A stretch of 5,517 nucleotides of DNA, from the NCBI GenBank assembly GCA_024762625.1, contig JANTHA010000151.1, forward strand, positions 1 to 5,517, read 5' to 3'. Position numbers and translations under genes: made by a program. The notes beneath the pieces are model-generated. The model made no database searches. It saw only the letters and a program-made list of their open reading frames with translations, and had not been told where the DNA came from. Of this stretch, positions 1,349 through 5,377 are shown piece after piece (position 1 is the first letter of the stretch; every line of letters starts with the position of its first letter). Source of the DNA: Thiotrichaceae bacterium (GTDB lineage: Bacteria > Pseudomonadota > Gammaproteobacteria > Thiotrichales > Thiotrichaceae).

Positions 1349-2155
1349 TCAGTTATTAGCAGAATATTTAAACGGCAACATAAACAGTTTATCAATGCGG
1401 CTATCTGATGGTTTTCTATAGCGTTCAAGTCCCAGCTTCATTTTGGGTATTTCGTCATAAGGCAGCCGCGTCGCTGTCCTGAAAATATAGTCAAATAGCG
1501 GTATAACCACACTATAATTACTGTCCGTGTAGCGTTGTTCACTGGAATGGTGCATACGATGAAAATCAGGCGTGACAATAAACAAGCGTAAAACATTATC
1601 CAGCCAGCGAGGCAAACTAATGTTGCCATGACTGAATAAACTGATTGCGGTGCGCAAAAAATTATACAACGCAATTAAAATGAACGGCGCTCCCAGAGCC
1701 AATAACAATGGAAGCATCAGAATAGCAGAGATAAGTGGTTCAAAAGGATGGTGTCGGTTAGACGTAGTGACATCCATCTCGGTGTCTGTATGGTGGACAG
1801 CATGGATTCGCCACAACAGGGGAATTTGATGAAAAGCCCGGTGAATCCAGTAAGTAACAAATTCTGCGCTTATCAATAACAGAATAAATGCGGGTATGTC
1901 AGACAGCTGGAAATATGTTATCAGTGGCGATTCCGGTTCTAGTCTGGCAACCACCAAAACCAGCGCAAGCGAAAAAAACAGAACCAAAAAATGGTTGAAT
2001 AGCGCCAGTCCGATATTACTCAACCAACGGCCTGTCTGGTTATCTTTTGTATCGCGTCGTGGAATCAGACCCTCAATAATAAACAATACAAGCATACCGC
2101 CAAAAAGAGCGGTAAATTGTATTTCATAGTAATGATTCTGAACAAAGGCGGTCAT
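1349..2155 (-). CDS. Sterol desaturase / fatty acid hydroxylase family membrane protein
   Basis: This is an integral-membrane di-iron oxidoreductase of the fatty acid hydroxylase superfamily, 268 aa. The three histidine boxes that bind the two irons are all present: HRAFH (105-109), HAVHH (118-122) and HRMHH (199-203). Accessory motifs NRHHPFE (133-139) and SHGN (175-178) also fit. Hydrophobic segments lie near 14-31, 46-70, 88-104 and 142-172, leaving the histidines on the cytoplasmic face as usual for the family. Members hydroxylate or desaturate sterols, fatty acids or other lipids; the bacterial substrate cannot be read from sequence. The ATG at 2155 has only a weak ribosome site. It is separated by 128 bp or more from both neighbours, so it is probably transcribed alone. 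The length is normal and nothing is broken. Confidence 0.9.
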   Translation of the reverse strand: MTAFVQNHYYEIQFTALFGGMLVLFIIEGLIPRRDTKDNQTGRWLSNIGLALFNHFLVLFFSLALVLVVARLEPESPLITYFQLSDIPAFILLLISAEFVTYWIHRAFHQIPLLWRIHAVHHTDTEMDVTTSNRHHPFEPLISAILMLPLLLALGAPFILIALYNFLRTAISLFSHGNISLPRWLDNVLRLFIVTPDFHRMHHSSEQRYTDSNYSVVIPLFDYIFRTATRLPYDEIPKMKLGLERYRKPSDSRIDKLFMLPFKYSANN

Positions 2156-2337: not shown

Positions 2338-2919
2338 TTAATTTTCATCTGGAGAATACGTACAATCAATAACACAGTTTTCGCCATGTTGAACTGTCAT
2401 TCCTTCTTTACATCTTATGGCAGGAGCTTGAGGTGGGTTATCAGGACATAGAGACGGCGTTACAATTACCACTGCCGAGGCAGTGCTACTAGTATCCGTT
2501 GGTAAGGTAATTTTGCTTATTTTTTGCGCTACATTACTGTTATTATTATAAATATTCAAATCAAGCGGAGCAACAGGTAATTGACCTCCTGCAGCTTTCA
2601 TTTCATAACTCATGGCTGCGTAGGCGTCAGAAAATAGTTTCACACTGCCACTCGCAGAAATCAAAGCGCCAACACCCAAGATGGTTATGACAAAATGTTT
2701 TGCTCCAGAGTCTTTTTGTTTAGCGATTCGAAAACTTACCGCCACCAGCAATAAACTCAGGATGATTAACATTGTGCCGCTCAAGGTAGGAATATTCGAC
2801 GCAACAGGCGCATAAACCAGTACGCCGCTTGTTCCTGCAAATACTGATGAAAAAGGCAATAAAGCAAGCAAGAAGGCTAATGGGTACAATAATGATTTTC
2901 GGGAGAAGTATGTTTTCAT
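2338..2919 (-). CDS. Midcut-by-XrtH-type membrane protein with internal IPTL sorting signal
   Basis: This small membrane protein of 193 aa looks like a substrate of exosortase H. Residues 1-28 form a clear signal peptide (basic MKTYFSRK, hydrophobic core, SSVFA cleavage site). A 14-residue linker follows, then IPTLS at 43-47, a hydrophobic helix at about 50-63 and basic RIAKQK at 64-69. That is the tripartite layout of an IPTL-CTERM signal, but it sits in the middle of the protein. A second hydrophobic segment (about 76-92) follows, then about 100 residues of soluble tail with four cysteines (158, 170, 182, 186). This matches what I recall of the NCBI family called midcut-by-XrtH. The usual Trp after IPTL is missing (IPTLSGTM). 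The start at 2919 is chosen over an upstream ATG (2958) because AAGGA lies 7 bases before it. No exosortase gene is in the window. The function is unknown. Confidence 0.8.
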   Translation of the reverse strand: MKTYFSRKSLLYPLAFLLALLPFSSVFAGTSGVLVYAPVASNIPTLSGTMLIILSLLLVAVSFRIAKQKDSGAKHFVITILGVGALISASGSVKLFSDAYAAMSYEMKAAGGQLPVAPLDLNIYNNNSNVAQKISKITLPTDTSSTASAVVIVTPSLCPDNPPQAPAIRCKEGMTVQHGENCVIDCTYSPDEN

Positions 2920-4432: not shown

Positions 4433-5377
4433 ATGCCTCGCAAATTTTATCATCCGCGCTATTGGCCCACCTGGTTCGGCATTGCAATATTGCGTTTGAT
4501 TGTGTTGCTCCCCTGGCGCTGGCAAATGGCGATTGGCAAAGGGCTTGGCGAGCTATTATATATCTCCCTGCCCAAACGTCGTAAAATCAGCGACATCAAC
4601 CTGCGCATCGCCTTTCCGGAATTGAATGAAAAACAGCGCCGTGAACTCAACCACAAGCACTTTGTTTCGCTCGGAAGGGGCTTGATAGAAGCAGCACTCG
4701 GATGGTGGGGTTCCGAAGATAAAATCAAACGTCTATCCCATGTTGAAAATCTTCATTACCTTGAAGACGCCTTAAAGGAAGGCCCTGTGATTCTGCTAGG
4801 CGCGCATTTTTCCAGTCTTGAAGTGGGCGGCCGGATGCTGGCGCAACATATGCCCCTGCATGTGGTTTATCGTCCACACCAGAATGAATTAATCGAATAC
4901 CTGGTGGCGCTTGGCCGCGATAAACGCTATGGCAAGGCGATACCCAAAACCCGCATGCGCGATATGATCAAAAGCATCAAGGCTGGCTTTCCAACCTGGT
5001 ATGCGACGGATCAGAATTACCGCGGCAAAGGCAGTATTCCGGCGCTTTTTTTTGGCGTAGAAGCGCCAACCAATCCGGGTACGGCAAGGCTGGCGAAAAT
5101 GACAAGGGCCAAAGTTCTGCCCTGCATTACAGTGCGCCTGCTGGATGACCAGGAAGAACGCAAAGGTTATCTGATCCGGGCGCTGCCGCCGCTGGATAAC
5201 TTCCCCAGCGATGATGCCGCAAAAGACACCCTTCGCCTCAACCGGATCCTCGAAGATCTGATTCGTGAGTTTCCCGATCAGTATCTCTGGACGCACAAAC
5301 GATACAAACGATACGATTCAGAGAAAGGCGATTTCTATCGCGATTTTGCAATCAAGGAACAACCGGGCCGCTCATGA
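4433..5377 (+). CDS. lpxL: LpxL/HtrB-type lipid A biosynthesis acyltransferase
   Basis: This inner-membrane enzyme adds a secondary acyl chain to Kdo-lipid A on the cytoplasmic face, using acyl-ACP. The protein has 314 aa (E. coli LpxL 306). It opens with HPRYWPTWFGIAILRL, typical of LpxL, and has one membrane segment at about 14-29. The catalytic HX4E pair is His125 and Glu130 in GAHFSSLE. YRPHQN follows at about 146-151, and DQNYRGKGSIPALFFG starts at Asp193. The end motif PDQYLWTHKRYK (about 281-292) is also family-typical. The ATG at 4433 has AAGG eight bases upstream. An earlier in-frame ATG at 4373 would overlap the zinc-finger gene and add residues the family lacks. It overlaps lptF by 4 bp (ATGA), which points to translational coupling of lipid A acylation with LPS export. 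Whether it adds laurate or another acyl chain cannot be seen. Confidence 0.92.
   Translation: MPRKFYHPRYWPTWFGIAILRLIVLLPWRWQMAIGKGLGELLYISLPKRRKISDINLRIAFPELNEKQRRELNHKHFVSLGRGLIEAALGWWGSEDKIKRLSHVENLHYLEDALKEGPVILLGAHFSSLEVGGRMLAQHMPLHVVYRPHQNELIEYLVALGRDKRYGKAIPKTRMRDMIKSIKAGFPTWYATDQNYRGKGSIPALFFGVEAPTNPGTARLAKMTRAKVLPCITVRLLDDQEERKGYLIRALPPLDNFPSDDAAKDTLRLNRILEDLIREFPDQYLWTHKRYKRYDSEKGDFYRDFAIKEQPGRS

Follow-up and report, generated by a model that had tools for sequence, protein, structure and literature searches.

The window analysed here is a whole contig of 5,517 bases, taken from a genome of 2.16 Mb (85.8% complete) which is placed by kinship in the genus Cocleimonas. On its reverse strand, positions 2338..2919 encode a protein of 193 amino acids, for which an AGGA stands 7 bases ahead of the start codon at 2919; an alternative upstream ATG would give an open reading frame of 206 amino acids. 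A sequence-only reading of this DNA had pointed, for a protein with such a layout, to an NCBI family named midcut-by-XrtH, and this assignment proved correct: the protein matches the family profile (NF033207) nearly over its full length, with residues 15-186 on profile positions 7-174 of 175 and a score of 72.5 bits for a cut-off of 45 (E = 4.3e-20). The window protein thus adds a member to an already named family, for which our literature search returned no mechanism. On the same strand, 182 bp downstream, a second gene (1349..2155) encodes a protein of the fatty-acid-hydroxylase family (PF04116, 104.8 bits, cut-off 31).

Several elements can be delineated along the midcut protein, all on the reverse strand. 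From the sequence, an N-terminal Sec signal peptide is predicted at residues 1-28 (2836..2919), likely cut after VFA, and residue 28 is Ala in 19 of the 22 alignment rows filled at this position. The 17 residues that follow, GTSGVLVYAPVASNIPT (residues 29-45; 2785..2835), referred to hereafter as the N-peptide, contain a beta strand predicted at residues 32-38 by an AF2 model. The XrtH-type sorting signal, defined by profile and alignment, covers residues 43-69 (2713..2793) and reads as the sequence-only reading had described it, IPTLS with a hydrophobic helix and a basic cluster (I43-P44-T45-L46, hydrophobic residues 46-63 and R64-I-A-K-Q-K69). The second hydrophobic segment (residues about 76-93; 2641..2694) and the tail up to residue 193, equally part of that description, are also found in the alignment. 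Between them lies KLFSDAYA (residues 94-101; 2617..2640), which holds a signal-peptidase-I-like site with cleavage predicted from the alignment after A-Y-A and before a further A. The tail itself (residues 102-193; 2341..2616) carries four cysteines and, according to alignment and AF2, predicted beta strands, and is predicted to lie outside the membrane. The A-x-A site behind the second helix, the N-terminal product of about 17 residues and the recurrent downstream partner gene had not been mentioned in the earlier reading.

The sorting signal has the same tripartite organization as those of the IPTL-CTERM/exosortase H system (TIGR04174, TIGR04177), whose exosortase is present in the genome of the window. 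It differs from them by its internal position (43-69 of 193), IPTL-CTERM requiring the extreme C-terminus, and by SGTM in place of xEWG, as seen in IPTLGEWG and IPTLSEWG of the two ordinary IPTL-CTERM proteins over cut-off that were found in this genome. The IPTL-CTERM profile gives 15.8 bits for a cut-off of 20.5, which bears out the divergence claimed for the signal; of the matches to both families that had been envisaged, the one to midcut-by-XrtH stands and the one to IPTL-CTERM does not. The exosortase H anticipated in the genome was located at C40:5162-5611 (TIGR04177, 173.4 bits, cut-off 86), followed by the gene for a membrane protein associated with exosortase H (NF041730, 129.7 bits, cut-off 35).

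Among 57 genomes, consisting of the window's own genome and its relatives, midcut proteins over cut-off occur in 7, the window's genome included, and XrtH over cut-off in 21, all 7 lying within the 21. A sample of 369 genomes of the class contains midcut (E <= 1e-10) in 2 and XrtH over cut-off in 14, and both midcut genomes, which also belong to the set of 57, are among the 14. Since five of the seven midcut genomes belong to one genus, these counts are not independent. Overall, midcut is carried by 6 of 63 genomes in the window's family and by 2 of 398 in a sample of the phylum; no midcut without XrtH was seen among the genomes tested for both (G607, discussed below, lay outside the XrtH search), and XrtH without midcut is frequent. 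As a separate observation, a genome that is 97% complete (G001, locus L011) encodes an ordinary IPTL-CTERM protein and gives no XrtH match, xrtH being maybe missing from the assembly.

In total, 24 midcut-type genes from seven genomes were collected (nine in Cocleimonas flava DSM 24830, eight in the Chromatiales genome G050, two each in G007 and G008, and one each in G000, G029 and G004), 18 of them over and 6 under the family cut-off; the nine of C. flava comprise four over the cut-off and include three PF04116 pairs. The alignment used throughout (24 rows) holds 22 of these genes and two further proteins, and leaves out the two G007 genes, which are near copies of C. flava genes, as well as the later-found homologue of G607. 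Because the family profile, which spans the A-x-A region, was used to find 22 of the rows, part of the conservation described below is selected for. The first Met aside, invariance is confined to four columns: P44 in the cut motif, L54, A101 and N126. A loss of the IPTL motif in homologues, which would have spoken against the sequence-only reading, is not seen, with Pro and a preceding I or V in 24/24 rows and Thr in 18/24. The second residue after IPTL (position 48) is Gly in 23/24, so that the divergence of the sorting signal, which lacks EWG, is a trait of the family. Five midcut genes stand in a row in G050 (L034, G050:C40:124000-137000, 5297-8831), and downstream of them (849-2543) a protein ends in a VPT-type signal like theirs. 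The cut motif (VPT, not IPT) may consequently vary together with the genome.

Signal peptidase I follows a rule of small residues at positions -3 and -1, with no Pro at +1. At the internal site, position -3 (column 99) is Ala in 18 rows, Leu in 3 and Val in 3, position -2 (column 100) is nearly random (3.52 bits), position -1 (column 101) is Ala in 24/24 and Pro is found at +1 (column 102) in 0/24, so that all 24 rows fit the rule. When the site was slid from -20 to +20 residues in each row (41 offsets), 24/24 rows fitted at shift 0 only, the next best value being 21 at -19. The loop between the two helices (residues 64-75) bears a net charge of +2 to +5 in 24/24 rows, which would fit an N-out, C-out topology. 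The basic loop, helix 2 and A-x-A thus together resemble a second, internal signal peptide. A101 closes a conserved stretch, K-L-I/V-S-D-A-x-A, and in the model helix 2 ends at residue 89, 12 residues away; the region corresponding to a c-region, of about 10-12 residues, holds the conserved K-L-x-S-D. Residues of about 90-101 are long for the c-region of a signal peptide, and K-L-I/V-S-D is not needed by signal peptidase I; because of this length and this conservation, another protease or a purely structural role for the A101 region is possible. In the more distant member from G607, the automatic alignment places no Ala at column 101, and V-Q-A occurs four residues earlier.

The distance from the N-terminal signal-peptidase site to IPT (columns 29-45) amounts to 17-22 residues in all 22 rows with a signal peptide. 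Within the N-peptide, column 34 is mostly hydrophobic, column 36 is Y/H/F in 23/24 rows and column 38 is Pro in 16/24. Two tandem midcut-type paralogues of C. flava (L039:4811-5871), both under the family cut-off, have no signal peptide and begin at the N-peptide itself (M-F-S/N-Y-S-L-L...AAAVPTLSG) after a GGGAG ribosome site. AF2 models were obtained for the window protein and for a homologue from G050 (30% identical), with a mean pLDDT of 68 and 63 and input alignments that were partly shared. Both place a strand in the N-peptide, at residues 32-38 (pLDDT 80 for 31-40) and 31-37 (pLDDT 77), respectively. Because all remaining predicted strands of both models sit in the tail, the partner of the N-peptide strand should, on the models, be found there. 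Fold searches with both models gave weak matches, none convincing.

The tails vary in size and content. Downstream of A101, four cysteines are found in 21/24 rows, eight in two and two in one. Pfam searches on five long-tailed midcut proteins revealed S74 in three, DUF11 and SpaA-like domains in one and CAP in one, the CAP-bearing protein being below the family cut-off (40.1 bits). The 905-aa member of G607 (L137:8708-11425) has a midcut region scoring 78.0-83 bits, followed by Ig/cadherin repeats, RTX repeats and a type I secretion C-terminal target domain. These passenger domains are of extracellular type. We note that the G607 protein combines a Sec-type signal peptide with a type I secretion target, and hence two export routes, in one polypeptide.

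The order midcut followed by PF04116 recurs at seven loci, in the window, three times in C. flava, twice in G007 and once in G008, with gaps of 182, 133, 27, 41, 174, 34 and 208 bp; both loci of G007 are near-duplicates of loci in C. flava. A PF04116 neighbour is absent at 17/24 midcut genes of the seven genomes, including all 8 of G050. In G029, which belongs to another, related genus, XrtH begins 13 bp after the end of a PF04116 gene and overlaps the XrtH-associated gene, the three sharing one strand. No further relative of the window's partner was found in the genome of the window. Among 14 genomes, 32 PF04116 relatives were identified, of which 29 were included in a tree and three short or distant matches left out. 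One branch (support 98/95) sets apart 11 rows, comprising all seven midcut-linked rows, the XrtH-linked one, two mini-linked ones (see below) and one at a contig edge, and 0/13 unlinked rows fall on that side. Of the other five mini-linked rows, four lack a resolved placement and one is grouped with unlinked rows, several of these rows having long branches. When 11 unlinked loci from genomes other than G050, together with two loci at contig edges, were scanned for the motif, no midcut or mini protein was detected; the sole match, within a 710-aa protein encoded ahead of the L138 gene, was judged by eye to be neither. The PF04116 gene likely works with the midcut protein.

The mini proteins were searched by script as proteins of 45-90 aa in which only a few residues stand between a signal peptide and a sorting-type C-terminus. 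G050 has nine PF04116 genes, and 14 minis of 49-69 aa were found at eight of these nine loci (L074, L075, L076, L077, L079, L080, L081 and L082). At seven loci, the PF04116 gene is immediately preceded on its own strand by minis, 11 in total and with as many as four in tandem, so that 7/9 PF04116 genes directly follow minis; at the eighth, three minis are on the opposite strand and more than 1 kb from the PF04116 gene. Applied to 400 kb of other G050 sequence, hand-picked away from PF04116 genes, the same scan returned 2 matches, by eye pieces of ordinary membrane proteins, and none in 132 kb of Cocleimonas loci. Ten of the 14 minis were tested against profiles, all staying under the cut-offs: for seven, the match falls within the first third of the midcut profile (positions within 8-64; E from 2.4e-6 to 0.0074) and the remaining three match IPTL- or PEP-CTERM models. 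Because G050 also encodes an EpsH-type exosortase, this enzyme may be the one to which some of the minis belong. The minis at L080 are of VPEP/SEP type.

From sequence comparison, a midcut protein looks like a mini-type XrtH substrate (signal peptide, peptide of 17-22 residues, IPTL signal) to which a second export signal and a tail have been joined. For archaeosortase A, PssA and PssD are needed for lipid attachment in Haloferax, and their homologues lie with artA in Methanosarcina (PMC7157517); the likeness to the present case is a sortase-like enzyme tied by gene order to lipid enzymes. Here, the neighbour is of the PF04116 class and not PssA/PssD, and lipid attachment by XrtH is putative. 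The partner also bears a distant likeness to the ornithine lipid hydroxylase OlsE (NF052566, likewise PF04116; 81.7 bits over residues 17-229), far below the equivalog cut-off of 475. The present analysis extends the description of NF033207 by the A-x-A site, the passengers, the mini relatives and the PF04116 partner. A search of part of the literature, without bioRxiv, brought up no publication on the second site, on the strand, on the passengers or on a link with a lipid enzyme.

The family membership, the XrtH in the genome, the conserved layout with its A-x-A, the varied passengers and the recurrent gene pair are observed. Their simplest account is a tentative model, to which we give somewhat less than an even chance, and in which a precursor of two export units is cut thrice, loses its hairpin and has its tail held by the anchored N-peptide, with PF04116 tailoring the acceptor; in it we infer every cleavage, the nature of the acceptor, the pairing of strands once the protein is mature and the substrate of the PF04116 enzyme. 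One cut would remove the N-terminal signal peptide. XrtH would cleave between IPT and L, reducing unit 1 to the 17-residue peptide, and would likely join the new C-terminus to a membrane acceptor in the manner of sortase-like enzymes, conceivably an amine-bearing lipid as proposed for archaeosortase A. A third cut by a signal-peptidase-I-type enzyme after Ala101 would remove the hairpin (residues 46-101) and free the tail outside the membrane, unit 2 representing a second export signal with its passenger. Pairing of the N-peptide strand with the tail would maybe keep the latter, and in relatives the passenger, non-covalently on the cell surface, and the adjoining PF04116 protein would likely make or modify the lipid acceptor, as proposed for PssA and PssD with archaeosortase A. 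XrtH may cut the midcut signal poorly, since it lacks the EWG of ordinary IPTL signals. With a conserved second processing-type site, the puzzle of a mid-protein signal takes on a layout that experiments can address, and the association with PF04116 directs the search towards a lipid and its chemistry; C. flava DSM 24830, a collection strain with midcut-type genes and PF04116 pairs, is suited to such tests. A bolder extension, which we regard as improbable, is a two-chain surface display in which XrtH ties a strand of 17-22 residues to a PF04116-tailored lipid, the hairpin is excised and the strand holds tail or passenger, the stand-alone minis being its primitive form, namely gene-encoded lipopeptides made by an exosortase.

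Other explanations were weighed against the three-cut model. The family name given by NCBI implies a single cut by XrtH at IPT-L, after which the hairpin would anchor the tail in the membrane and the N-peptide would be a by-product or a signal; the stretch before A101, long for signal peptidase I, and the conservation of K-L-I/V-S-D agree with this. An Ala101 kept in 24/24 rows beside variable neighbours, with A/V/L at -3, is however hard to explain as plain linker, and we consider this alternative rather unlikely, yet the strongest of the rivals. The absence of EWG from midcut signals, the Gly at position 48 in 23/24 rows, minis that amount to a signal plus few variable residues, and the provision of an own small protein for each PF04116 gene at linked loci would all be understandable if midcut proteins and minis were uncut decoys or regulators, occupying XrtH or serving as small membrane subunits that dock on the PF04116 enzyme; a direct role as enzyme subunits is possible because small substrates of their own accompany the linked PF04116 genes. 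The presence of XrtH in 7/7 midcut genomes tested and the retention of Pro and the preceding I or V in 24/24 rows nevertheless argue against such a role, which is also ill-suited to large passengers like the RTX adhesin-like tail, and we hold it to be distinctly doubtful. Finally, a weak Pfam match to PF04956 (E = 0.0022) could hint at a two-helix subunit related to TrbC/VirB2 pilins, but the score of 18.6 bits is below the gathering cut-off of 27.9, so that membership was rejected. The conserved, cysteine-bearing tail of some 90 residues and 0 conjugation genes among the six window proteins scanned further count against a pilin, making this origin very remote.

Three further genes may be mentioned. 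An open reading frame adjoining XrtH in the window's genome (L049:4086-5081) resembles by eye a lipid A acyltransferase, and an LpxL/HtrB-type acyltransferase (PF03279) is encoded near midcut at positions 4433-5377 of the window; the occurrence of acyltransferase-like genes near both is probably due to chance. At positions 285-1220, the window encodes an SLT-domain transglycosylase with a stretch very rich in Lys/Arg between its signal peptide and its catalytic domain.
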